Assembly (NCBI RefSeq): GCF_034259325.1
Contig: NZ_JAXIVS010000001.1
Coordinates: forward strand, 1,178,001 to 1,242,000
Length of the DNA: 64,000 nt
Reading direction: 5' to 3'
Source of the DNA: Hyalangium ruber
Lineage (GTDB): Bacteria; Myxococcota; Myxococcia; Myxococcales; Myxococcaceae
Shown: positions 42,118 through 57,799 of the stretch, one piece after another
How positions within the stretch are numbered: the stretch's first letter is position 1
How the letters are laid out: the number at the start of each line of letters is the position of its first letter
Notes under the pieces: generated by a model
The model's database searches: none
Told to the model about the DNA's origin: nothing
What the model saw: only the letters and a program-made list of their open reading frames with translations
Translations under genes and position numbers: made by a program

Positions 42118-44565
42118 CTACGAGAGTACAGCAAGCACGTCCGTATCAGGTTCATCCGCCAAGATCGCCCCCGTGTCCGTGAGGTTGAATCCATAGGGCC
42201 ACTGCGTGCTCTTGTCGTAGATCGCGCCTTTCAGGTTGGCGCCATGGAGCAAGGCCTCCGAGAGATTTGCACCGTGGAGCAAAGCGCCCTCCAGCGAAGC
42301 GCCGTCCAGCACAGCGCCTTTAAGTGAAGCGTTCAACAGGTTTGCGGATCTGAGTTTTGCATCCCTGAGATCAGCGCCGTCCAGCTTAGCGAACGTCAGC
42401 ACGGCGTCGGTCAAATCTGCCTCGTGGAGAACGGCTCTTCTAAGGTTGGCTCTCTCCAAAGAAGCGTTACGAAGGCAAGCAGATGAAAACTGTGCGAACT
42501 CGAAATCTCCCCTGTCAAGGAGAGCATTCTTGAGGGAGGCGCCCACGAAAAGGCTCCCTGTGCACATCGCTCCGAACAGGCGGGCTCGATCGAGCTGAGC
42601 CTTGGTAAAATCGCACGGTTCAGCACTGCCGACACGACGGCGCATGAGATTGGCGCCCGTGAATAGAACTCCCCGCAAGTCCGCCTCCCGGAAGTTGGCT
42701 CCTCGCAAGCTCAGTTCCGACAGTACGGAGCCCTCCCACCGGGCCTTGGGCGCAATGAGGATGGGACCGACTCGCATCAGCCAGAACCACGCGAGCATCG
42801 CGCGAACCGTGAGGCTGTCCTTGACCTGCATGCCAGGACTTCCGTGGAGGCAACTCCCAATGGCCAGCGCGCCCTCCCGCAGCCAAGGCATCCGGTCCTC
42901 TCGCAGCGCCTCGGGACGGCGCGCAGGGTATCGGTGTTCCTCTGACTCGAAGCGGTCTTGAGCCCACGCCAGCAGTTCCCGCTGATATTCCTTGGCCAGC
43001 CCAAAGGGTGCATTCGGGTGCTGAGTCAGAGGCTCGCCGTTCAACATCTCCATCAGGAACTCGAAGGTCCGGTCCTCACGACTGAGCAGTCGTCCGTCGA
43101 GGAGCGGCTCCTCGATCTTCTTCCACTCCTTCTCTCTCGCCTGAGCGAGCGCCTTCAAGCGGTCCGCCCAGTAGCGGGCTGCCAGGTACTCCCGAAAGGT
43201 CTTGTGGCCAAACAGGAGTCGGCTGGCCCTCCCTGCTCTCAAGTGGGCCTGCATGCTCAGCAGCAGCCCCCCCTGGATCGCCTTGAGGGTATCCGGAGCC
43301 GACCGGAGTCCCAGCTCATCTTCGATGAGGTTTTCGATCTCGCGCTCGGTCAGCTCCTCGAGAGCTTCCTGATCGAAGTACTTGCTGCGCTGCTGGCGCT
43401 TCGTGGCTTCCCATGCCACCCGGCCCATCAGCCAGAGCATGGCATCGGGCTCGCTGGCGGACTCATCGAGCAGTTTCTGCTTCGTCAGCTGCTTGAGCAG
43501 CTTCTCGGACGACTCGGCGATGTTTTGATGGTGCTCTCGCGCGTCGTCGTGCTTCCCCTTGGCGATCTGCCAGAAGAATTCCTCGTACAGCGCAGCCTGG
43601 CTCGTGCCCTCTCCCTGGGTATGGCGGCTCCACGTCTGGGCGATCATGAACAGGAGGATAGGCGTGCCCGCAAGACTGTCCAGCCCGCGAGCCTTCACTT
43701 CCTGGAAACTCAGCCCTTGTCCTTCATGGGCCTGACGCCAGTTCCTGAGCCACTTGTCGATCTGCTCCTCACGCCAGGGCAGAATCTCGACCACGGGGAT
43801 GTTCTTCAGGTCCTGCTCAGAGGGAAGTGCGCCGGGACGCGAGAGGAGAATGAAGCGATGGTTGGGGGTGGCTTGATCACGAATGTGCTCGAAGAAAACC
43901 TTCAAGCGCCGCTCATCGAGGATGACCTCATCCAGTCCATCGATCAGGAAGACCGTCCGCTGGTCCTTCTCGGGAAGAGCCAATGACGTGTCACTCGTCT
44001 TCAGTCCCACGTCCAGATCGCCTGCCTGCCGCTTCCATGCCCTGCGCACAGCCTTCTCAAGATCGAAGTCGTCACTGGGCAGGTCCTCGGCGCAGCGGAT
44101 GAAGACGGGCAGGATGTGCTCGGAGGAAGTCTCCCTCCCCGTCAGGAACTGCTGAGCCCAGCGCTGCGCCAGACTTCGAGCGGTAAGGGACTTGCCCATT
44201 CCAAAGTCCGCCTTGACGACGACGACATGTTTCTTCGGCTCCTTCAGCAGGGATTCGATGAGCTTGATCACCGGCTCCCCGTCCTCAGAGCTGGCACTGG
44301 TGGTCCAGGCGTTCGGCTCGACGTACAGCTGCGTCAGGGACAGGAAGGGGATTCCCGAGTCGGCCCGCCAGTTGCGCCGCTCCACATTGCCGAAGATGTG
44401 GCGCTCTCCCCAGGTGGCCATGTCCTTGAGGAGCAGTTCTCTCAACAGGCGCCCCAGGTAGTCGCTGGACAGGCGCTGCAGGTACTCCTGGAGCGGCTGC
44501 CCTTCCGAGGTGCTCAGGGCTGAGCCTGCCCCGATTTTGTGGACACCCCTGATGAGTCGAAACAC
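42118..44565 (-). CDS. NACHT-domain NTPase with C-terminal pentapeptide repeats (5' end split by an IS)
   Basis: An 815-residue STAND-type protein as written. Walker A-like VKADFGMGKSLTARSLA near residue 118, Walker B VFLIDGLDE near 205-213, FILLSRPGAL as sensor I, and a helical middle; an extended pentapeptide-repeat tail (about 640-790: repeated A(D/N)L, for example EADL, GANL, DADL-like blocks). Such NTPases act as signal-sensing switches, and bacterial NACHT proteins include antiphage proteins. The visible start (GTG 44565) lies inside an IS3-family element. The original start was probably ATG at 45808, reached by removing the element and one target copy. Confidence 0.8.
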   Translation of the reverse strand: MFRLIRGVHKIGAGSALSTSEGQPLQEYLQRLSSDYLGRLLRELLLKDMATWGERHIFGNVERRNWRADSGIPFLSLTQLYVEPNAWTTSASSEDGEPVIKLIESLLKEPKKHVVVVKADFGMGKSLTARSLAQRWAQQFLTGRETSSEHILPVFIRCAEDLPSDDFDLEKAVRRAWKRQAGDLDVGLKTSDTSLALPEKDQRTVFLIDGLDEVILDERRLKVFFEHIRDQATPNHRFILLSRPGALPSEQDLKNIPVVEILPWREEQIDKWLRNWRQAHEGQGLSFQEVKARGLDSLAGTPILLFMIAQTWSRHTQGEGTSQAALYEEFFWQIAKGKHDDAREHHQNIAESSEKLLKQLTKQKLLDESASEPDAMLWLMGRVAWEATKRQQRSKYFDQEALEELTEREIENLIEDELGLRSAPDTLKAIQGGLLLSMQAHLRAGRASRLLFGHKTFREYLAARYWADRLKALAQAREKEWKKIEEPLLDGRLLSREDRTFEFLMEMLNGEPLTQHPNAPFGLAKEYQRELLAWAQDRFESEEHRYPARRPEALREDRMPWLREGALAIGSCLHGSPGMQVKDSLTVRAMLAWFWLMRVGPILIAPKARWEGSVLSELSLRGANFREADLRGVLFTGANLMRRRVGSAEPCDFTKAQLDRARLFGAMCTGSLFVGASLKNALLDRGDFEFAQFSSACLRNASLERANLRRAVLHEADLTDAVLTFAKLDGADLRDAKLRSANLLNASLKGAVLDGASLEGALLHGANLSEALLHGANLKGAIYDKSTQWPYGFNLTDTGAILADEPDTDVLAVLS

Positions 44566-44580
44566 GAGAGGATGTGTCCC

Positions 44581-44877
44581 ATGGGACGAAGGAAGAGGCG
44601 GAGTTTCACGCCCGAGTTCAGGGCGGAGGCAGTCCGGCTGGTGAGAGAGGGGACGAAGTCGCTGCCCCAGGTAGCCAAGGACCTGGATCTGACCGAGTCA
44701 GCCCTGAGGCTCTGGGTGAAGCAGGCAGAGGAGGCGGAGGGCAAGGGCACTGCTGGAGCGCTGAGCCAGGCCGAGCGGGAGGAGTTGCTGAAGCTGAGGC
44801 GAGAGAACCGGCAACTGCTGATGGAGCGTGACTTCCTAAAAAAAGCAGCGGCCTTCTTCGCGAAGGACTCGAAGTGA
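44581..44877 (+). CDS. IS3-family transposase OrfA
   Basis: A 98-residue DNA-binding protein with the transposase HTH (RSFTPEFRAEAVRLVREGTKSLPQVAKDLDLTESALRLWVKQAEE) and a leucine-rich coiled coil (LSQAEREELLKLRRENRQLLMERDFLKKAAAFFAK). ATG 44581 is the likely start; 44572 is in frame and possible. Seven A followed by G (from 44838) is a standard slippery site for -1 frameshifting into orfB. Confidence 0.92.
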   Translation: MGRRKRRSFTPEFRAEAVRLVREGTKSLPQVAKDLDLTESALRLWVKQAEEAEGKGTAGALSQAEREELLKLRRENRQLLMERDFLKKAAAFFAKDSK

Positions 44878-45749
44878 GGTTCGAGTTCATCGACGCGCAG
44901 AAGGCCCACTTCCCCATCGAGTTCATGTGCGAGCAGCTGGAGGTGTCGCGCTCGGGCTTCTACGCGTGGAAGCAGCGTCCGGAGTCTGCGCGCCAGCAGC
45001 AGGAGAAGCAGCTGGCCGAGGAGGTGGCCAAGGTGCACCAGGAGAGCCGTGGTACCTACGGCAGCCCTCGGGTGCATGCGGAGATGCGAGCACGGGGACG
45101 CAAGGTGAGCCGAAAGCGGGTGGCCCGACTGATGAAGAAGCAGAAGCTGGCGGCCCGCAAGAAGCGCCGCTCGGTGCGCACCACCGACTCCAACCATTCC
45201 AACCCGGTGGCCCCCAACGTGCTGCAGCGCGACTTTTCCCCCGACAAGCCCAACAGCACCTGGGCCACGGACATCACCTACGTGTGGACAGGCGAAGGCT
45301 GGTTGTACCTGGCCGTGGTGCTCGACTTGTTCTCACGCATGGTGGTGGGCTGGTCCATGAGCGAGCACATCGACACGAAGCTGGTGCTTGGAGCGCTGGA
45401 GATGGCCTTGGAAGGGCGACAGCCGCCCCAGGGGCTTATCCACCATTCCGACCGCGGCAGCCAGTACGCCAGCGCCGAGTACCGGCAAGCTCTGGCCTCC
45501 CGGGGTATCCAATGCAGCATGTCCCGCAAGGGCAACTGCTGGGACAACGCCGTGGTGGAGAGCTTCTTCAGCAGCCTGAAGCAGGAACTCGTCTACCCCA
45601 CCGACTTCGCCACCCGGCACCAAGCTCGTTCCGAACTCTTCGAGTACATCGAGGTCTTCTACAACCGCAAGCGCCGACACTCGAGCCTCGGCTACCTGAG
45701 CCCGAGGGACTATGAACGGGCCGCACTACCTGATAGGTTGGCAGCATAA
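44874..45749 (+). CDS. IS3-family transposase OrfB (DDE integrase)
   Basis: A 291-residue catalytic protein in the -1 frame. It has an HTH-like start (YGSPRVHAEMRARG), and the rve core with Asp in WATDITYVWTG, Asp in HHSDRGSQYAS and Glu in NAVVESFFSSLKQEL, then HSSLGYLSPRDYE. All catalytic residues are present, no stop or frameshift. It overlaps orfA by 4 bp; the OrfAB fusion arises by frameshifting. Confidence 0.95.
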   Translation: MRFEFIDAQKAHFPIEFMCEQLEVSRSGFYAWKQRPESARQQQEKQLAEEVAKVHQESRGTYGSPRVHAEMRARGRKVSRKRVARLMKKQKLAARKKRRSVRTTDSNHSNPVAPNVLQRDFSPDKPNSTWATDITYVWTGEGWLYLAVVLDLFSRMVVGWSMSEHIDTKLVLGALEMALEGRQPPQGLIHHSDRGSQYASAEYRQALASRGIQCSMSRKGNCWDNAVVESFFSSLKQELVYPTDFATRHQARSELFEYIEVFYNRKRRHSSLGYLSPRDYERAALPDRLAA

Positions 45750-46157: not shown

Positions 46158-46339
46158 GAGGCTCACGGCTGTGTGCGGGTTCGATCGCCCCGCATCCACG
46201 CAGAGTAACCCGCCGCTCTCAAGTCTCGACACCTGCTTGGGGGAGCGCCTGACACAAACAGGGGCCCTTGGCCATGTCCACGCGAACATATTGCTTCAAG
46301 TCTGATGATTGGAGACGCTCATCCTTTCAGGAGAATCCC

Positions 46340-48835
46340 TTGCATCGTTCTCGCGTGCTTCATCGACTTGCCGCCGTCACGCTCGCCGCCCTGGCCGGAT
46401 GCGCGCGGGCGCCACTGGCTCCTTCAAGCCCTGCCGAGCATCAGGCGGTCTTGGTGGCCTCTGGGACTCAGACGGAGTTGGAGGACCCCGCGCTGGAATG
46501 CCGTCTCCATAAAGGACAGTTCCGGCAGTACGCGCACAGCCCTCCCCAGCAGCTCGTCGGTGCCTGGGAGACGGTCATCCCCAGGCAGGATGGGGCCGCC
46601 ATCGGCAACATCCTCGGGATGCAGACGATGCACTCCGTCATGCTCCCCTCCGGGAAGATCCTCCTGGTCAGCGGGAGCAGTTGGCGCAACTTCTGGAGTG
46701 AAAAGGACCCCATCCAGTACTACCCGAAGTACGCAAACCCCGAGCCCCCGAGCGGCTGCTTCGCGTACGACGACCCCTTCAACAAGAGCAAGCTCGCGGC
46801 GTACTACGAGGTCGTCAACAACGCCGCCATCTATGATCCGGCCAACAACACGTTCTATCGCATCCCTCACCCCGTGCCAGTGGATGATCCCCAGAGCAAG
46901 GATCACTTCGCACCCAACGATCTGTTCTGCACGGGCCATCAGCACCTGCCGGATGGCAACGTCCTGTTCACCGGGGGCACGCAGTATTACTCGCCGTTCC
47001 GCACGGGGAATCGCTCGACTTATATCTTCGACTGGCGCAAGGAAGTGGAGATCTCCTGGCCGAAGGTCGACTGGCGGCAACTGCCTCAGCCGAAGAACGA
47101 TCCGTGGACCTTCGCGGGCTTCATGGAGCGGGGGCGCTGGTACCCGACGCTCGTCCCGCTCCTGGATGGCCGGCTGGCGCTCTTCAGCGGCTTCGTCGAT
47201 CTCGACCTGAAGAAGTGGCAGGAGAAGAAGTCCGACAAGGAACGGATGTACATGTTCGAGATCAACTCCTTCGTCGAGTTCTTCGATCCCTCCCGCTTCA
47301 ACCCTGCGCAGCCCCAGGCGGCCTGGAGGTCCGTGGACGTCAGCAAGACCCAGAACAGCCCCTTCACGGTGGAGATCAACCCCGACTTCAAGCCGACCCC
47401 CGGCGTCAATAAACGCGGCCAATCAGAAGCTTGCGGTGATCGCTGCCAGCAGGAGAACAAGTTCGACGCCTTCAAGCTCTATCCGGTGAACTACCTGATG
47501 CCGGACGGTCGCATCTTCTTCACCGGGGAAGGCGACTGGGTGAGCTTGCGCACCTGTGACACCGCGTTCATGCGCCGCACGAAACACACGTACTGGGGGA
47601 CCATCGGAGGCACGCCGGACGCCCCCACGATGTCGTTCGCCGCTGGGCCTGAGCGGGCCCATGACGTCACGTCCTACGGCACGTCATTCCTTGACCCCAA
47701 CAACGGCGAGATGCACATCCTGGGCGGTCAGCCGACCTCCGCAGGGACGCTGCTGCCCATCAACTCGGTCAAGCACAACCACTTCGCGGGGGGACGCGGC
47801 AGCCGGCAGCTCGAGTCGTTCCAGATCTCCTCGGCGGCACCCGATGGAAAGTGGATGCCTATCGACAAGGACTTCCTCGGGGACGAGCCGCAAGACGACC
47901 GCACGATGCACTACGCCATCATCCTTCCGACGCGGCAGGTGCTGATGATCAACGGCGGGAACTATGACTTCTACGGGCCCGTCCACTACCCGCTGCTGTT
48001 GACGCCCAGGTTCCGAAAAGGGCGGGGCGCCGGAGAGCCGGAGAAGGTCCTCCTCGGCTATGAAAGGACGCGGATGGCGGACGCGGTGGAGCCCAGGCTC
48101 TATCACAACGTGGCGATGCTCCTCCCGGACGGACGCATTTTCGTGTCCGGCGGCAACACGTCGCGCGCGACGGTCCACCTCTCCACCAGCCAGGCTCCCC
48201 AGCCGGCCGACTCACAACCCAAACCTGACCTGAGCCTCGTCGAGACCGACGTCTATTTCTTCGACGACGGCCCGATGGCCAAGGGCCAGCAGGGGATGAT
48301 GGTCGTGCCCACCGAGAACTGGACGGCGGAGATCTTCTCTCCCCCCTACATGTTCAGCGGCAATGACGCCCCTCAGGTCCGCATCGCGCGGATGGCTCCT
48401 GCCCAGAAGGTGGACTACACGTTCAGCAAGCAGATCGGCGGCAAGCCCTACTTCCTGCTCCGGGGCAACCGGGGCTACGACCTCGAGCTCGACAAGCAGC
48501 CGCCTCGCTGCGCGCGGCAGTGGGTCTGCAAGAACAACCAGGCCTGCGGGGATGGACAGGCGTGTACGGACGGCTCGATGTGCATGGAGGGGAAGGCCTC
48601 GCTCTCACTCATCAAGCTGCCTTCCGCGACACATGGCTGGGAGAACGGCCAGAAGTTCGTCGAGTTGCCATTCACGGAGCGCGACGGCGATCCCCAACGG
48701 CTCCGCTTCCAGACGCCGGAGCTGAAGAGCGCCAACGCTCCGCCGGGCTATTACATGCTGTTCTACGTGGACTGTCAGGGCAAGCCTTCGATCGCACAGA
48801 TGGTGCGCTTCGACGACACCGCAAAGGAGCCTTGA
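46340..48835 (+). CDS. Secreted kelch/galactose-oxidase-like (DUF1929) lipoprotein
   Basis: An 831-residue protein. A TTG start at 46340 with AGGAG upstream gives a lipoprotein signal (LAAVTLAALAGCARAP). The body is a beta-propeller with kelch-like blades (HQHLPDGNVLFTGG, RWYPTLVPLLDGRLALFSG, RLYHNVAMLLPDGRIFVSGGN) and a C-terminal galactose-oxidase early-set domain (EIFSPPYMF, LPSATHGWENGQKFVELPF, NAPPGYYMLFYVD). A Cys-rich insert (~710-735) is unusual. Relatives are copper radical oxidases making H2O2, but the Cys-Tyr radical site was not confirmed. An ATG at 46268 or 46274 is an alternative start. Confidence 0.8.
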   Translation: MHRSRVLHRLAAVTLAALAGCARAPLAPSSPAEHQAVLVASGTQTELEDPALECRLHKGQFRQYAHSPPQQLVGAWETVIPRQDGAAIGNILGMQTMHSVMLPSGKILLVSGSSWRNFWSEKDPIQYYPKYANPEPPSGCFAYDDPFNKSKLAAYYEVVNNAAIYDPANNTFYRIPHPVPVDDPQSKDHFAPNDLFCTGHQHLPDGNVLFTGGTQYYSPFRTGNRSTYIFDWRKEVEISWPKVDWRQLPQPKNDPWTFAGFMERGRWYPTLVPLLDGRLALFSGFVDLDLKKWQEKKSDKERMYMFEINSFVEFFDPSRFNPAQPQAAWRSVDVSKTQNSPFTVEINPDFKPTPGVNKRGQSEACGDRCQQENKFDAFKLYPVNYLMPDGRIFFTGEGDWVSLRTCDTAFMRRTKHTYWGTIGGTPDAPTMSFAAGPERAHDVTSYGTSFLDPNNGEMHILGGQPTSAGTLLPINSVKHNHFAGGRGSRQLESFQISSAAPDGKWMPIDKDFLGDEPQDDRTMHYAIILPTRQVLMINGGNYDFYGPVHYPLLLTPRFRKGRGAGEPEKVLLGYERTRMADAVEPRLYHNVAMLLPDGRIFVSGGNTSRATVHLSTSQAPQPADSQPKPDLSLVETDVYFFDDGPMAKGQQGMMVVPTENWTAEIFSPPYMFSGNDAPQVRIARMAPAQKVDYTFSKQIGGKPYFLLRGNRGYDLELDKQPPRCARQWVCKNNQACGDGQACTDGSMCMEGKASLSLIKLPSATHGWENGQKFVELPFTERDGDPQRLRFQTPELKSANAPPGYYMLFYVDCQGKPSIAQMVRFDDTAKEP

Positions 48836-49320: not shown

Positions 49321-49338
49321 CGCCGAAGAAGAGCGGCC

Positions 49339-50604
49339 TCACTCGAACGGCGGCGGCACGAAGGGGAATTCGTCCACGGTCAGCCGCGCCGGCGCCGGAA
49401 CGCCCACGCCTCGAAGGGGCGTCGGACGCGCAAGGCCGTTGATGAACACGGTCAGCGTCCTCTCGATGACATCTTCATTGGGGAGCCGTCCCCCGACTCC
49501 CCCACCGGCCACCCTGGTTAAACGAGCGATCTCGATGCCGAGATAGCCCACCTGCGTGCTGGAGGGTTTCGTCGGTTGAGCCAGATCGAAGATGAGAAAG
49601 TCGTCCATCAGGAGATCAACCCAGGGATGGGGCACGGGCCAATCGAGAACGGAGGTCTCCGGCGAGCCTTCCTCGAGCATCTCGAACCCATCCAGCCGCT
49701 TCAGCCCTCTGCGCAAGGCCTCCCGGTACTTCTCGACGTTCTTGGGATCGAGCGCAAAGGCATCCTCCGCATTCCAGAGGTCCCTCACCTCGTCTTCACG
49801 CACCATGAACACGGTGATCTCCACCCTTCCCATCCGATCAATCCGGCGCATAGCCCCAGCGCCAGGATTCGAGAGGTCCAGTTCCGCCACTTCACCGACC
49901 GCCGCGAAATACTGCGCTTCGCCTTTGGCACCCGTCGTCTGGTGGGTGGCCCTCAAATACCTGTCGACACTCAGGTCCACGACGATGCTGAGGACGTTCT
50001 TGCCGTTGAAGGTGTTCACGCCCGGCCAGTCAGTCCCACTGCTCAGCTCCGTGTTGCGCCAGACCGGCATCCTCACCCGTGCTCGGTCGGTAAACAGCTG
50101 ATCAGCCCTGGGCCCCGCGAAGACCTTGAAGTCAGGATTGCCACCCCCGCTCAGATCCCGGGTGTTCACGCTGATCTCCTGCAGAAGCGAGGGCGGCCCT
50201 TTTCCGCTCGAACGCGTGAACTTGCAGTTCATGGTCTGCGGCTCACGCCCCTTCGCCCTGCAGTCGATCCTGAACTCCTCGTTCGACACGCTTGCCCTGA
50301 ACGGGGCGCTCGTGAAGCCCGTCACGGGGCGGAACCTGAGGCTGTAGTTCAAAGCCGTATCAAAGACCTCGTTGGGCGCCGCGGATGGACGAGAGCTCAG
50401 GATGAGCGAGAGCCTCTTCTTGTTCTGCTGATCCAGCCTTGGGAAGACGAAGACGTCCGTGACATCCGCCGACGGACGGTTCGTCACGATGGACCCATCT
50501 TTATGATCGGCGGCGAGGGCGCTCACCCCCACCAACAAGACAAGGGCCAAGCTGAGTGCGCGAAGCCCGCTTCGGCGCAGGGAACGTCTCAAGACCTTCT
50601 TCAT
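49339..50604 (-). CDS. DUF4331 exported protein
   Basis: A 421-residue protein with a Sec signal (LALVLLVGVSALAADHKDG). After it the family block VTNRPSADVTDVFVFPRLD, NGKNVLSIVVDLSV and a C-terminal FINGLARPTPLRGVGVPAP. DUF4331 proteins often begin ADHxDSP, and some occur near oxidases or porins. The role is unknown. Last gene of the LodA operon, 21 bp after the DUF4198 gene. Confidence 0.85.
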   Translation of the reverse strand: MKKVLRRSLRRSGLRALSLALVLLVGVSALAADHKDGSIVTNRPSADVTDVFVFPRLDQQNKKRLSLILSSRPSAAPNEVFDTALNYSLRFRPVTGFTSAPFRASVSNEEFRIDCRAKGREPQTMNCKFTRSSGKGPPSLLQEISVNTRDLSGGGNPDFKVFAGPRADQLFTDRARVRMPVWRNTELSSGTDWPGVNTFNGKNVLSIVVDLSVDRYLRATHQTTGAKGEAQYFAAVGEVAELDLSNPGAGAMRRIDRMGRVEITVFMVREDEVRDLWNAEDAFALDPKNVEKYREALRRGLKRLDGFEMLEEGSPETSVLDWPVPHPWVDLLMDDFLIFDLAQPTKPSSTQVGYLGIEIARLTRVAGGGVGGRLPNEDVIERTLTVFINGLARPTPLRGVGVPAPARLTVDEFPFVPPPFE

Positions 50605-50625
50605 GTTGCTTCTCCAGGAGTGAGG

Positions 50626-51456
50626 CTACTGTTTCCCAACGTCCGGCCCGGCGGGCGCCGCGAGCTCAAAGGTGAGCGAGGCCCAGAGGCTCTCCCAGTC
50701 CATGCTCAGCTCCTCCGGCGCCGCGACCATGTGGGTGCATTTGACGAGCCATGCGCCCGCATGCTGGAGCCTCAGCCGCACGCGGCCCTCCGCGTTGGTG
50801 CGAGCGGCGACGAACTGCTTCGGCTCGGCGCGGCTACGCGCGATGACGAGGCCATTCTCCAGCGGCTTGCCCTCAAACAGGACACGGAACGTCAGCTCCG
50901 AGCCCGCGGCCACGAGGTAAGGGTTGGTCTCCGGGACGATCTCCAGGCGCAGCCCGGCAATGCGGTCATGGCCCTCTGTCGCGCCCCTCCCCGCCTCGAG
51001 CAGCGTCTTGGCGCAGCGCGAGTAGACCTCGGAGACGCCCCTGCCGGTCTCGTTCCGCTCGGCACGAAGCCTCGAGACGTGCTCCAGTCCCTCGGCCTTC
51101 AGGTAGGCCTCGAACTGCGCGGCCTCCAGCCTGATGGGCCGACGCTTACCGCGGTAGGCGACCAGGTAGAGGCCATCCTTCGCGGGTGTCACACGGCCAG
51201 CCAGCTCCTGCTTGTCCTCGCCAGGCACAGGCTGCGTCCCTTCGGGACCCATCACCACGAACTTCTCGATGAAGAAATTGTCACGCGGGGCGACGGTTGC
51301 CTCGTACTCCTCCCCGTAGTGTAACGACAGCCCGACGGTCTCCCCCCTGGCCACGCGGAAGCTGCCCGGCTCGAGCCAGAAGTCATGGGCCTGGGCTGCG
51401 CCTGCGGACAGCAGTGCCGCCAGGCAGGCCGTTGCGAGACAGAGGGTCCTCTTCAT
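50626..51456 (-). CDS. DUF4198 exported protein
   Basis: A 276-residue protein with a signal peptide (CLAALLSAGAAQAHDFWLEPGSF). The HDFWLEP opening and LHYGEEYEATV are typical of DUF4198, which includes periplasmic components near nickel/cobalt transporters. The metal link is from family context, not shown here. It lies 15 bp after lodB and shares the operon. Confidence 0.85.
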   Translation of the reverse strand: MKRTLCLATACLAALLSAGAAQAHDFWLEPGSFRVARGETVGLSLHYGEEYEATVAPRDNFFIEKFVVMGPEGTQPVPGEDKQELAGRVTPAKDGLYLVAYRGKRRPIRLEAAQFEAYLKAEGLEHVSRLRAERNETGRGVSEVYSRCAKTLLEAGRGATEGHDRIAGLRLEIVPETNPYLVAAGSELTFRVLFEGKPLENGLVIARSRAEPKQFVAARTNAEGRVRLRLQHAGAWLVKCTHMVAAPEELSMDWESLWASLTFELAAPAGPDVGKQ

Positions 51457-51471
51457 CGTGCACATCTCCTG

Positions 51472-52560
51472 TCATGGAGGGGCCGCGCGGCGCTTCCAGA
51501 AGAGCTGCCCTCGAAAGCGACGCTCCTGGGAGTAGACCGCTTGCCGTTGTACGACGAAGTTCCGCACCGCGCTCTCGAGCGTCGCTGCGTAGCGGCGCAG
51601 GGGGCCGGGATCGCCACCGAGCGAGGCCAGGGCCGCCAGGGCTGCTTGCCTCCCCCCCCACAAGGCGGAGGTCAGCCCATGAGAGGAGAGCGGATCGAAG
51701 GCCGCCGCCGCATCGCCCGCCGCGGCCCAGCCCGGCCCGGTGGCTGGATCGAGCCACGCCGTGCCCGCACTGGTGAGCCGCGCGGGCTCGCGGATGGCGT
51801 ACCCCGCACTGTCCAGCCAGCGCTGGATGAAGTGTGTCTCGGCCGCCAGGGTCCGCCACGCGCCCGCCTCACGCGTCACCTCGCGCGGCATCAAGTCGGG
51901 ATCCGTGAAGAACGCGAGGCTCAGCCGTCGATCCGGCAGCAGGGTGGCGTACCACCAGCCCCCCGCCACCCCCTCGATGAGGGTCGCGGGCGTCGGCTCC
52001 ACCGTCTCGTCGTGCTGTGTCACGAAGTCATAGGCCGCCACCAACCGGTCCGCACGCCGCCGCCGGGCGACACGCCGGGCGAAGACCGCCGCCCGGCCGC
52101 TGCAATCCAATACGAACCCTGCCTCCACCCGCGCTCCACCGGACAGCGTCAGCGACCAGCCGTCCCCGGCGCGGGTTGCGTCGGCGAGCGTGTCCGGCAC
52201 CGTCTCCATCCCCTGAGCAGAGACGGCCTCGCCCAGCATCCGCTCGAACGCTCGACGGTCGATGACATGGCCCGGCCCCTCGGTGTGAATGATGGAGTTG
52301 CGCTGGGCGAGCAGCGCCATCCCCCAGGCCGCATAGGTGGCGTGAGACGGGCGATGCGGCCCGGCCTGGAACGCCTCGGTGAGCCCCAGGTCCCGAAGCA
52401 GCCCATGGGCCGCTGGGGACAAGGACTCTCCCGTCCGGGGGCTCTCTTTCGAGGCAGGTGCCACCATGATCACCGAGCGGCCCCGGCCAGCGAGCGTCAA
52501 TGCCGCAGCGGCCCCGGCGATCCCCGCCCCGATGATCGCGATATCGACCCTCGTCGGCAC
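51472..52560 (-). CDS. LodB/GoxB-type FAD-dependent maturation protein
   Basis: A 362-residue flavoprotein with the N-terminal FAD motif VDIAIIGAGIAGAAAALTLAGRGRSVIMV, a GxS-type region PRTGESLSPAAHGLLRDLGL, and GPGWAAAGDAAAAFDPLSSHGLTSAL. This pattern matches the LodB/GoxB group, flavin enzymes needed to form the CTQ cofactor of the neighbouring oxidase. GTG at 52560 is 2 bp from the LodA stop; a start at 52572 is possible. Cytoplasmic, consistent with action before Tat export of LodA. Confidence 0.85.
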   Translation of the reverse strand: MPTRVDIAIIGAGIAGAAAALTLAGRGRSVIMVAPASKESPRTGESLSPAAHGLLRDLGLTEAFQAGPHRPSHATYAAWGMALLAQRNSIIHTEGPGHVIDRRAFERMLGEAVSAQGMETVPDTLADATRAGDGWSLTLSGGARVEAGFVLDCSGRAAVFARRVARRRRADRLVAAYDFVTQHDETVEPTPATLIEGVAGGWWYATLLPDRRLSLAFFTDPDLMPREVTREAGAWRTLAAETHFIQRWLDSAGYAIREPARLTSAGTAWLDPATGPGWAAAGDAAAAFDPLSSHGLTSALWGGRQAALAALASLGGDPGPLRRYAATLESAVRNFVVQRQAVYSQERRFRGQLFWKRRAAPP

Positions 52561-52562
52561 GA

Positions 52563-54644
52563 TTATTGGCACGCCGACTTCTTGGGGGCTGGGGTGGGGG
52601 TAGAGGGATCCTTGGGTGGCTCCTTCGAGAGGGCGGACAGATCCATGGAGCCGCGATCCACCTCGACATACAGGACCTTGGGTATCTCCTCGGGCCAGCT
52701 TGGATCGGGCGCGGCGACCTTCTTCACCACGAAGCCCATGCGATCCCACAAGTAGACCATCCGGTTGAGCCCGTCGGTGTAGCTCGCATTGGCGTGGTAG
52801 CCAATCCCTGCCACTCCACGCGACCATGAGACGCGGTTCTGGAAGAACTTGATCCGCTCGGCCGCAGACAGCTCGGTCCTGAGGACCGAGGCATAGAAGT
52901 CCTGCGGCAGGACATCAATGGGCAAGAGCGCGGGCCACCAGGTGGCGACGGGGAAGTCGTCGGCAATGTCGAGGGAGGAGTCGTCGTTGGCGCTGTTGGC
53001 GAAGTTTACCTGCTGGCAGCTGAAGGCATCGCACTGCCAGGGCAGCCCCATCCAGCGCGTGAGGTCACCCGGCATCTGCGGGGCGATGGCCGATGCTGTG
53101 CCACAGTGTCCGCCAAACGCCTTCTCGGGGGTCAGGAGCAGGCCCAGGTTCTGGATCAGATCGGGGCTTCGGCCGGTCGCGAGCGCGATCCGGAACGGCC
53201 CCCGGTACAGTTCCTTGTGACGCAGCGGCCAGGTCAGCTCCACACCGGGGTGGAATGCGCCGCCCGAGCAGGGCTCCAGCGCGGCGCGGGTCAGCGCCTC
53301 GGGCTGTTCGGCGAGGGGGACCTGATTCAGGCGGGTGATGTCGTTACCCGGGTTGGAGTTGAAATCGTTGATGAACTGTCCGGCCGCCCAGCACTGGAGA
53401 AGCGCGTACTGCTGCTTGGGGATGTGGAACCATCTGAGGGGCGAATTGTTGTAGTTGATGCCATCGCCCAGCATGTAGGGGAGCGCGTACTGCTGCAGCT
53501 CCTTCGAATGGGGGTTGCGAAACTTCTTGAACACCTCCTGCCGGCACGCCTCGTTCTCGGGGCTCGGGTCGGCCAACCTGACGATATAGGCCGGGTCGGA
53601 GAAATCACCGGTCTTGATCCAGCCCTGCTGCAGGTTGGCGGCGGAGGCCACCCATTCCATCAGGGCCATGCGCTGGAAGAACGGGTAGATGTACTTGGTG
53701 AACGACAACGGCAGTGCGGGAGGCATTGACCAGTTGGCCTCGATGTTGACATCGCACATGACGTCATAGAGCGAGATGAAGGGCGGGATGTCCGGCGCGA
53801 AATCAGGGCCGCAGCACGCCACCCAGCCGTTCTCCGCATCCATCGTGCTGCCGCCCTTCAGATGCACCTTCGCCTGCACGACACCATCGCACCAGTCGTC
53901 ATGCCAGCCATCGTTGTCGGAGAAGTTGCTGATGGGGTTGTTCGGCAAGGCCGATGCGGAGACACCATCGCCAGGGAACACCAGCAGGCGGCCCGCGTCG
54001 TCGGTTTGGAGGTGGCCCAACTTGACCGGCATCTTTTCCCAGAAGCAGCCGGTCATGTCGAAGTCCGGTGTATTGCCCTTGGAATTGATATTGGTTCCAG
54101 AGATCTTCTTCGCCCCCGGGTTGATAACCAGCATCCTGGCACGCCTGGCATCGTCCGTGATGGACTGGTTGCGCAACTGGCCTGGGAGACCCGGGGCCCG
54201 CTCGCCGTTGTCGAGCGGATTGTTGAAGCCATACCAGGCCGCCTTGGTGTTGGCGACGTGGACTGTCCACTCGATGCGATGGCCATCGGCCACGGAGATC
54301 TCTCGAATGACCTCGCCTGCCTTGTTGAAGGCATAGACGCGAAAGCGCTGGACCTGCTTCTTGATCTTCTGCGAGCCGTCTTTGTAGCGGCCATCGGGCA
54401 CCGGAGAGATCCCTGGGACTTCGGGTGCCAGGAAGTACTCCTTGCTGTTGCCCACGCGGCTGATCCCCAGGGGCGGGTAGACCGCCAGGCGGGCGATCTG
54501 GGTGTCGGCCGGCGCCGCGGTGCGAGTGCGGTCCACTGCCGCCTGCGCGATCCTCGGCAGCACCAGCGGGGAGAGAAGCGCACCCGCCAGGAAGTCGCGC
54601 CGTTTGATGTTGGAAGCACCCGACTTCGGATCGTTCTCACTCAT
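52563..54644 (-). CDS. LodA/GoxA-type CTQ-dependent amino-acid oxidase with Tat signal
   Basis: A 693-residue quinoprotein. Twin-arginine motif IKRRDFLAGALLSPLVLPRIAQA at residues 13-36 points to Tat export after folding. Family landmarks: LAVYPPLGISRVGNSKEYFLAPE, GGAFHPGVELTWP (His465 region), and LPWQCDAFSCQQVNFA, where Asp539-x3-Cys543 matches the Asp/Cys of LodA. Trp607 (NRVSWSRG, 64 residues after the Cys) is the likely partner in cysteine tryptophylquinone. LodA makes H2O2 from lysine, GoxA from glycine; the substrate here is open. First gene of a minus-strand operon. Confidence 0.92.
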   Translation of the reverse strand: MSENDPKSGASNIKRRDFLAGALLSPLVLPRIAQAAVDRTRTAAPADTQIARLAVYPPLGISRVGNSKEYFLAPEVPGISPVPDGRYKDGSQKIKKQVQRFRVYAFNKAGEVIREISVADGHRIEWTVHVANTKAAWYGFNNPLDNGERAPGLPGQLRNQSITDDARRARMLVINPGAKKISGTNINSKGNTPDFDMTGCFWEKMPVKLGHLQTDDAGRLLVFPGDGVSASALPNNPISNFSDNDGWHDDWCDGVVQAKVHLKGGSTMDAENGWVACCGPDFAPDIPPFISLYDVMCDVNIEANWSMPPALPLSFTKYIYPFFQRMALMEWVASAANLQQGWIKTGDFSDPAYIVRLADPSPENEACRQEVFKKFRNPHSKELQQYALPYMLGDGINYNNSPLRWFHIPKQQYALLQCWAAGQFINDFNSNPGNDITRLNQVPLAEQPEALTRAALEPCSGGAFHPGVELTWPLRHKELYRGPFRIALATGRSPDLIQNLGLLLTPEKAFGGHCGTASAIAPQMPGDLTRWMGLPWQCDAFSCQQVNFANSANDDSSLDIADDFPVATWWPALLPIDVLPQDFYASVLRTELSAAERIKFFQNRVSWSRGVAGIGYHANASYTDGLNRMVYLWDRMGFVVKKVAAPDPSWPEEIPKVLYVEVDRGSMDLSALSKEPPKDPSTPTPAPKKSACQ

Positions 54645-54780
54645 CGCGTTGTCTCCATCGATGCCCGAAAGAATGGCTCCCTGTTTAGGCGAGCCGCCGG
54701 GTGCACGGAAGGAATCATCGACCATTTTTGGTACGCTCTGGCGACAGGAGGCAGGGCTGAGCACGCCACAGGAGCACAGG

Positions 54781-55203
54781 ATGGACACAGGGCACTCGAG
54801 CGCCGGGCACCCTGCCCTGCTCCCGATGGGCATCGAGGTGGGGCACTGGCGCGTGGTGGGCTGGGCTGGCTGTGGTGTCTACGGGGCCGTCTTCCGCGCC
54901 GTGCCTCTCTCTGAGCCTCACACTCCTGCCATCGCCCTCAAGCTGGCCCTGTACCCGGCGGATCCGCGCTTCGCTCGCGAGGTGAAGCTGCTGTCCGGCC
55001 TGGCGCACCCCCACATTCCACGCTTCGTGGGCAGTGGCGAGTGGAGGCACCCGGCCGGCTCGCTCCATCCGTACATTGCCATGCAGTGGGTGGAGGGCGT
55101 GCCGCTCTACGACTGGGCGCAAAAGCAGCAGCCGGGCCCCGCCCAGGTGCTGCGGGTGCTGGCCGGGCTGGCGCGGGCCCTGGAGGCCTTGCATGCCCAG
55201 GGT
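54781..55203 (+). pseudogene. Ser/Thr protein kinase gene truncated by an IS21-family element
   Basis: The frame from ATG 54781 reads MGIEVGHWRVVGWAGCGVYGAVFRAV (a P-loop-like glycine loop), ALKLALYP (Lys), VKLLSGLAHPHIPRFVGSGEW and LARALEALHAQG. It stops being kinase-like exactly at the IS21 left end, before the HRD catalytic loop, DFG and the substrate lobe. A residual ORF continues into the element. Not a working kinase. Confidence 0.85.
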
Positions 55204-55217
55204 GCGTATTCCGGCGA

Positions 55218-55295
55218 AGCCGGACACCCGTTCCGGAGCAAGCCGATCACCGATTCCGGCAAGCCGATCACCGATTCCGGGCAAGCCGATCACCT
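55218..55295 (+). repeat. IS21 left subterminal repeats
   Basis: Three near-copies of AGCCGATCACCGATTCCGG (with spacers) in 78 bp. The same motif in inverted orientation fills 57866-57975. These repeated end sites are the probable IstA binding sites. Confidence 0.7.
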
Positions 55296-55316
55296 GCGTG
55301 ACGACGCTGGAGTTCT

Positions 55317-56070
55317 CTACTTCGCCGCCTTCTTGGCCGTGGTCAAACTCTCGGCCTTTCGAATGGACTCACCGCCGAGCTTGAGGCGGTGGGCGTTGTG
55401 GACGAGCCTGTCGCAGATGGCGTCAGCCAAGGTGGCGTCGCCGATGATGGCATGCCAGTCCTTGGGCTCCAGTTGGCTGGTGAGGACGGTGGAGCCGAGC
55501 TGGTAGCGGTCGTCGAGCACTTCGAGCAGTTCCTTGCGCTGCGCGGCGCCCAGGGGCTCCAGACCGAAGTCGTCGAGGATGAGGACCTGAGCCTTGGCGA
55601 GCCGGTAGCAGGTGGGGGTAGGTGCCGTCGGCGCGAGCCTGAGCCAGCTCGTCGAAGAGCCGGGAGGTGCGGCGGTAGAGGACGGAGTAGCCCTCGCGGC
55701 AGGCCTTCTGCCCCAGCGCACAGGCCAGGTAACTCTTGCCCACGCCGGTGGGCCCGGTGATCAGGACGTTCTGGTGGCTGTGCACCCAGCGGCAGGAGGC
55801 CAGGTCCAGCACTACGGTCTTGGACAGGCCTCGGGCGTGCGAGTAGTCGATGTCCTCGATGCAGGCCTGCTGCTTGAGCTTGGCGTTCTTGAGCCGCTGC
55901 TGCAGTTGGCGGTTGTCCCGGTGCAGGTGCTCGGCGTCCACCAGCAGGCCAAGCAGATCCGCTGGTGCCAGCTCCTTCTCCTGGGGCTGCTCCAGCCAGC
56001 GCCGCATGGCCTTGGCCATTCCGTTCAGCTTCATCGCCTCGAGCTTCTCGAGGGTCTGCTCTACAAGCAT
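55317..56070 (-). pseudogene. istB: istB-type helper ATPase (frameshifted)
   Basis: From ATG 56070 the frame reads MLVEQTLEKLEAMKLNGMAKAM, then the P-loop [16 protein letters not shown]. Near 55607, after ADGTYPHLL, one extra base shifts the frame; [18 protein letters not shown] (Walker B) and [16 protein letters not shown] continue in another. Function is lost unless the frame is an assembly error. Confidence 0.8.
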
Positions 56071-56202
56071 GGGGGTCTCCGTGGCAGCCTTCAGGGGCTG
56101 CGGGTGTGCGGCCTCGTTGTCGTCGCGGGCGGCCGGCGCGCACGCTGCGCGACGGCCGCCCCCTGAGCACCGTGAGGCCACCAGCGGTGCTCAGTCAGCA
56201 CT

Positions 56203-57799
56203 TCAGTGGTAGTAGTCCGAGCCGCGGACGTTGCCGTGCGCAGGCAGGGCCATCAGTTGCGGCTGCTCCGGGGTCGGCTCTCGGTCCAGGTTGTTCTTCA
56301 GGATGGCGGCCACGCTCTTGTAGCTGCATGCCCGCAGCCCCAGCGCCCGCGCGCACGCCGCTTCAATCCGGGCCGTCTCGTACTTGCGGCTCAGGTGCAG
56401 CACTCCCAGGCAGGCGCGGAAGCCATGCTGGGCATGCACCCGGCGCCGCATTATTTCCTCCACCAGCGCGGCGGTGGCAGGGCCCGTCTTCTTGGCCCAC
56501 TCGATGAGCCGCGTGGGTGTCCACTCCGCCTGAGCTTGGTGCGCCTTGGGCATGTGCTCGGGCTGGGTGGTGTGCTTGCCCTTCTCGGTGCTGCGAGGGT
56601 GCGAGGTGACGCGGCGTCCGCTCAGGAAGAGCTCGACGACGGTGGCGGTGGCGCGTAGGTCCATCTGCTTGCCCACCAGCTGGTAGGGCACGCTGTAGAA
56701 GTGCTCGTCGAACTCCACGTGGTAGTCGATGTGCACCCGAGGCCGCGCCCACTGGGCGAACTCGTAGCGCCGAGCGGGCAGAGGCCGCAGCGCCGCGCGC
56801 TCCAGCTCCTCGAAGACTTGCCAGCGCGACTTCTTCAGCTTCTTCATCGGCCGCTGGTTCAGCTTGTCCACCAGTGGCTTCACCGCCTGGCGCAGCTCCT
56901 CCAGCGAGAAGAACGTGCGGTGGCGCAGGGCGGCCAGAATCCACCGCTCTGCCAGCAGCACGCCTTGCTCCACCTTGGCCTTGTCCCGGGGCTTGCGCAC
57001 CCGCGCCGGTACCACCGCCGCGCCGTAGTGCCGCGCCAGCTCCGCGTAACTGGGGTTGATGTCCGGCTCGTACAGGTCCGGGCTCTTCACCCCGCTCTTC
57101 AAGTTGTCGGGCACCCACACCTCGGCCACTCCGCCCATGAACTCCAGCGCCCGGACGTGGCAGCCCACCCACGTCGGCAAGTCCTCGCTCAGCACCGGCT
57201 CGGCGTAGGTGAGGTTGCTGGCTCCCAGCACCGCCAGGAACAGCTTGGTCTTCGTACATTGCCCGCTGGTCGGATCGACCAGGTCCACTCCATCCCCGCT
57301 GAAGTCCAGGAACAGCTTCTCGCCTGCGCGGTGCGTCTGCCGCATCGTCACATTCAGTGTGCTCGCCCACTGGGCGTACCGCTCGCAGAACTGCGAGTAC
57401 TGGTAGCACCCCCGGCTGCTCCGTCTTGTACTCCTCCCACAGCAGCTGCTTGGTGACGTGCTTCTTGCGCAGCTCCAGGTGCACCCGCGCCCAGTCCGGC
57501 TCCGGCCGGTTGCGCGTCGGGTGCCCCTCCGTGGAGAACAGTAGCCGCGTGAGCGCCCCGTCCTCGTCCAACTCCGCCGGCAGCGGCCAGCTCAGCTTCG
57601 CTACCTTCACCCGGCCCAGGTACCCGCTCACCGTGCTCGGCGAGAGCGAACAACTGCGCGCGATCGCCCGCGCGCTCATCCCCAGTTCCAGGTGCAGCCT
57701 CAGTATCTCTCTCAGCTTCCGCATGGACAGCCTCTCTGCCGCCACAGCCCCTCCTTGTTCGGGAGGCGGTGTGCTCGGCTCTCTGTCCAGCGTCGTCAA
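56203..57799 (-). pseudogene. istA: istA-type transposase (frameshifted)
   Basis: N-terminal HTH (MRKLREILRLHLELGMSARAIARSCSLSPSTVSGYL) is read from a TTG/ATG start near 57799-57724. After LLWEEYKTEQPG a G5 run (near 57404) shifts the frame. The remainder carries the rve-like catalytic core (LFLDFSGDGVDL, AVLGASNLTYAEPVLSEDLPTWVGCHVRALEFMGG) and RWQVFEELERAALRPLP, the typical IstA end. Single-base frameshift in an otherwise normal-length gene. Confidence 0.82.

Follow-up and report, generated by a model that had tools for sequence, protein, structure and literature searches.

We find that a four-gene operon of the myxobacterium Hyalangium ruber joins genes for a GoxA-type oxidase and its maturase, GoxB, to genes for two exported proteins of families DUF4198 and DUF4331, and on balance we favour reading it as a goxAB operon into which genes for two periplasmic metal-binding proteins were recruited. 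The window analysed is a stretch of 64,000 nucleotides, and its positions are used throughout. Computation establishes the identities of the genes, their catalytic residues, the conservation of the cassette and of the N-terminal histidines of the DUF proteins, and the linkage of these families to HupE. The four genes are separated by intergenic gaps of 2, 15 and 21 bp in the order goxA, goxB, DUF4198, DUF4331 (Table 1). An earlier note on this DNA had described four minus-strand genes at 49339-54644 with these gaps, two of them for additional exported proteins; coordinates, strand and order are exact, and signal peptides are predicted on both DUF products. The host genome measures 10.8 Mb, relatives in the collection being of similar size, and its owner appears to be a Myxococcaceae-like bacterium.

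Table 1. Features of the four-gene operon (window positions) and of related operons elsewhere (locus positions).
Feature	Position	Strand	Description
goxA	52563..54644	minus	CTQ-dependent glycine oxidase, 693 aa
Tat signal peptide, GoxA residues 1-35	54540..54644	minus	KRRDFLAGALL...AQA then A; read from sequence
Asp539-x3-Cys543, CTQ site	53016..53030	minus	Aligned to PlGoxA D678/C682; invariant 84/84
Trp570, CTQ tryptophan	52935..52937	minus	Aligned to PlGoxA W697; invariant 84/84
goxB	51472..52560	minus	Flavoprotein maturase, 362 aa, GTG start, without signal peptide
DUF4198 gene (PF10670)	50626..51456	minus	276 aa, signal peptide
His24 codon, predicted mature residue 1 of DUF4198 protein	51385..51387	minus	Predicted mature start His-Asp-Phe-Trp
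DUF4331 gene (PF14224), divergent member	49339..50604	minus	421 aa, signal peptide
X-X-His (ADH), predicted mature N-terminus of DUF4331 protein	50503..50511	minus	Ala-Asp-His; same placement 35/35
DUF4331-DUF4198-HupE/UreJ operons, three unrelated proteobacterial replicons	L156:8526-11661; L216:3379-6322; L217:16618-19926		

The oxidase matches the NCBIfam equivalog for GoxA, NF038173, with 1040 bits (cut-off 750), contains the Pfam domains LodA_N and LodA_C, and has PlGoxA (6byw, E=5.8e-70) and LodA (2ymw) as its nearest solved structures. Identity as LodA itself (NF038172) was rejected at 213.7 bits against an equivalog cut-off of 600. The "LodA/GoxA" oxidase of the earlier note stands as a predicted exported CTQ oxidase, but the alternative it left open closes specifically on GoxA/GoxB (NF038173/NF038174). 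Alignment to PlGoxA bears out the Asp-x3-Cys and Trp that it had assigned to CTQ (D539, C543 and W570, unvarying in 84 GoxA proteins), and the twin-arginine signal it had proposed is likewise borne out: the N-terminus, MSENDPKSGASNIKRRDFLAGALLSPLVLPRIAQA followed by A, is compatible with a Tat signal (KRRDFL plus A-x-A), 82/84 GoxA homologues share the motif RRx[FLIVM][LIVMF], and a tatC gene was found in the host genome. Active-site position 248 is variable across the family (H, Y, Q, C or F; 84 aligned). GoxA of Marinomonas mediterranea, present in supernatants, is a CTQ oxidase that is specific for glycine and carries a Tat signal (PMC3948610); for group II LodA-like proteins, a Tat motif is named as one of the features (PMC4417212). 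Oxidase and maturase are of an already known kind: that GoxA is exported by Tat and acts against bacteria through H2O2 has been on record since 2013-2015. Phylogenetic analysis of 83 GoxA proteins put the two from myxobacteria in a single clade, set among sequences from Alphaproteobacteria, Eremiobacterota and Chloroflexota, a placement that suggests an older horizontal origin. The host carries a second LodA-family gene (G000:C3:786574-788010, locus L048) with its own lodB-like neighbour and no Tat signal.

GoxB scores 477 bits against equivalog NF038174 (cut-off 400) and bears an FAD-binding GxGxxG at its extreme N-terminus. It lacks a signal peptide, from which we may fairly infer that CTQ would mature in the cytoplasm before Tat export, much as had been proposed earlier for a LodB-type enzyme. 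The gene immediately follows goxA in 79 of the 80 retrieved loci; in the remaining one the contig breaks off within goxA. At some proteobacterial loci (L066, L068, L093, L094, L102, L103 and L107) a ridA-like gene comes directly after goxAB, an arrangement that fits clearance of an imine product. A RidA partner of this kind, as in some alphaproteobacteria, was sought and rejected here: neither the four-gene cassette of the window nor that of locus L039 contains a ridA-like ORF.

The third product matches DUF4198 (PF10670) with 136 bits, and its His24, which becomes His1 of the predicted mature protein, is invariant in 25/25 relatives. IsDUF4198, a secreted DUF4198 protein that opens in the same way (HDAWVEPG), binds nickel through His1 (PMC12537917; structure 9GCB). 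Both proteins belong to PF10670 and present HDxWxEPG past the signal peptide, whereas overall identity is low and the window protein has no His at mature position 18, the site of the second ligand of IsDUF4198 (His18). The nearest His to that site, by sequence alignment only, is mature position 23, which is Arg in the orthologue. This missing counterpart counts against the favoured reading, as does the placing of the cleavage sites of both DUF proteins by the A-x-A rule only.

The fourth product is a member of DUF4331 (59.7 bits against PF14224, cut-off 27), a family for which a search of our literature library returned no paper. A single-sequence AlphaFold2 model of it (mean pLDDT 32.5) was too poor for use. 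Directly after the predicted cleavage site, 35/35 DUF4331 proteins carry X-X-His, in the form SSH, SDH, ADH, ASH or SHH; the set was drawn from the window gene (49339-50604) and loci L056, L149-L161, L216-L233 and L240-L242. Forms that are signal-less, fused to an SRPBCC domain or borne on plasmids start MSDH or MADH, so that they too would present X-X-His once Met is removed. When its amino terminus is free, X-X-His is the ATCUN motif, which binds copper and nickel. On this pattern DUF4331 is a candidate ATCUN metal-binding family, in its secreted and cytosolic forms alike. One report (PMC7232333) describes ATCUN-Cu peptides as producing radicals.

Where these families occur elsewhere, the neighbouring genes point to metal. 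A HupE/UreJ gene lies within about 2 kb of 17 of the 20 alphaproteobacterial relatives of the window DUF4198 and within 5 kb of 10 of the 16 myxobacterial DUF4331 loci; beside LodA-family loci it was found in 0/101, the window and L039 included. For this linkage of DUF loci against LodA-family loci we obtained Fisher p values of 5e-18 and 9e-11, which are indicative only, the loci not being phylogenetically independent. The host's own HupE gene adjoins its second DUF4331 gene on contig C5. Whole modules recur on other replicons: a Rhodopseudomonas metagenome-assembled genome (G197) has a DUF4331 - DUF4198 - HupE/UreJ operon separate from its goxA, which is on another contig, and its DUF4198 is 36% identical to that of the window over nearly the whole length; a Pseudomonas aeruginosa plasmid carries DUF4331 - cytochrome c - DUF4198 - HupE/UreJ; and a Mesorhizobium plasmid carries DUF4331-like - DUF4198 - HupE/UreJ (the DUF4331 match, at 24.6 bits, being slightly below the Pfam cut-off), lying some 16 kb from a LodA/GoxA-family gene. 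HupE/UreJ proteins are nickel permeases, in some of which a His domain at the N-terminus has been proposed to capture metal (PMC12537917). Descent of the DUF pair from metal-handling modules is well supported; the absence of a HupE gene from the cassette counts against the favoured reading.

Among 145 genomes of the order, a close orthologue (85%) was found only in G048, a member of another genus, in which the four genes are all present and identically ordered. The conserved DNA extends from window position 49337 to 54647 (84% over 5.4 kb), its ends lie no more than 3 bp from the outer ORFs, and neither flank shows relatedness between the two genomes. All four reading frames are conserved with dN/dS of 0.26, 0.23, 0.28 and 0.28, and so are not chance ORFs. 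Their dS of 0.26-0.45 resembles the 0.22-0.35 of gyrB, a gyrB/parE-like paralogue and rpoB in the same genome pair; the linkage therefore dates back to the divergence of the two lineages, and recent transfer of the cassette between host and G048 is not supported. These comparisons are most simply explained if the common ancestor already had the cassette, which then stayed intact as rearrangement altered its surroundings. Selection for the linkage nevertheless rests on one comparison of two genomes, which counts against the favoured reading.

Divergent from goxA, a protein-kinase-like gene (54833-55300) stops short after about 140 codons next to an istA/istB pair of IS21 type (55343-57799), an insertion that looks like the interrupter. 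Beyond the other end lies a convergent galactose-oxidase-like or GlxA-like gene (46268-48835; 100 bits against a GlxA cut-off of 800), possibly a further H2O2 producer; it falls outside the conserved block and was rejected as a fifth member. An IS3-type transposase pair (44539-45749) adjoins a NACHT-pentapeptide-repeat gene (42118-44565).

Searching 101 LodA/GoxA-family loci by tblastn with several queries gave DUF4198 and DUF4331 genes only in the window and G048 and none nearby in the other 99, which rules them out as a usual component of such loci. A profile search of 40 goxA-bearing genomes recovered DUF4198 from 17 of them and DUF4331 from 7, and none of these hits fell at the goxA coordinates. 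The earlier note had suggested that the four genes may form one system: they do occur together in both genomes, but in only 2/145 of the order, and as a general combination the claim is not supported, the position of the DUF genes away from other LodA loci being an outcome that the note itself had named as refuting it. The four-gene form is a rare, lineage-specific variant of a known oxidase operon. This rarity, together with the occurrence of the DUF pair away from gox, even in the goxA-bearing G197, lends weight to the strongest alternative, an accidentally shared promoter. Here goxAB would be followed by an uncoupled remnant of metal acquisition, the DUF4198-DUF4331 pair, which a rearrangement in the common ancestor of the two genera had brought in downstream. 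We regard this as somewhat unlikely: the four genes have been held in order since the genera split, with both flanks wholly changed, and purifying constraint is of similar strength on each of them.

Under the favoured reading, recruitment of the metal-binding pair by goxAB, cytoplasmic GoxB would complete the CTQ cofactor in GoxA, and the folded oxidase would exit by the Tat route; outside the inner membrane it would convert glycine by oxidation to glyoxylate, ammonium and H2O2. Both DUF proteins would be exported separately, each exposing an N-terminal chelator: His1 in DUF4198 and an ATCUN-type X-X-His in DUF4331. That the pair binds metal is likely from its N-terminal histidines and the genes that customarily adjoin such proteins, and the metal would be a transition metal of the Ni/Cu class, held in the same compartment as GoxA. 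The pair would derive from DUF4331-DUF4198-HupE/UreJ modules, the permease having been lost from, or never present in, the window operon. Its coupling to peroxide chemistry is suggested by one conserved cassette; in the simplest form, the pair may keep redox-active metal away from local H2O2 production or manage metal during it. Its role could be to protect the cell, to supply metal or to turn peroxide into radicals. A bolder version, which we consider a long shot, takes DUF4331 as an ATCUN Cu/Ni family that works with His1 DUF4198 and HupE/UreJ and is here joined to a peroxide-making oxidase, chelators and H2O2 acting together, for example in copper-driven radical attack on competitors or in its prevention.

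The oxidase might instead serve nutrition, deaminating periplasmic glycine as a source of nitrogen or carbon and releasing H2O2 incidentally, as the order goxAB then ridA (of the imine/enamine deaminase family) with adjoining amino-acid transport genes in several alphaproteobacteria would suggest; we think this improbable for the window operon, which has neither ridA nor transporter, and published GoxA occurs in supernatants with antibacterial activity. Marinomonas GoxA supernatants, which inhibit E. coli in a catalase-sensitive manner (PMC3948610), make a role in killing or predation possible by analogy, and the host probably stands among Myxococcaceae-like predatory bacteria, but the secreted H2O2-producing system for killing or predation raised in the earlier note, taken with the DUF proteins as effectors or targeting parts, is quite unlikely, the DUFs elsewhere being parts of metal-permease modules and goxA relatives residing mostly in non-predatory alphaproteobacteria.

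The oxidase itself is ordinary; what the operon offers is a tie between DUF4331 and metal handling, and its main by-product is an argument that DUF4331 proteins form a metal-binding family with an N-terminal X-X-His and with links to DUF4198 and HupE/UreJ. Were the coupling true, the operon would be a rare example of a quinoprotein H2O2 producer that comes with periplasmic proteins devoted to metal binding, which would bear on how bacteria survive or exploit peroxide of their own making.

Compared with known systems, the Hyalangium operon shares with GoxA/GoxB of M. mediterranea and the group II LodA-like proteins a common family, the Tat signal, the CTQ residues and a goxB directly downstream, and differs in adding the DUF4198 and DUF4331 genes and in its myxobacterial host, relatives being mostly alphaproteobacterial. 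With the lysine-epsilon-oxidase LodA it has superfamily and cofactor in common, although its score is far below the LodA equivalog cut-off. Relative to the DUF4331-DUF4198-HupE/UreJ operons (L156, L216 and L217), it keeps both DUF families adjacent, with a DUF4198 36% identical to the L156 protein, but it lacks the permease, places goxAB ahead of the pair and reverses the order of the two DUF genes.
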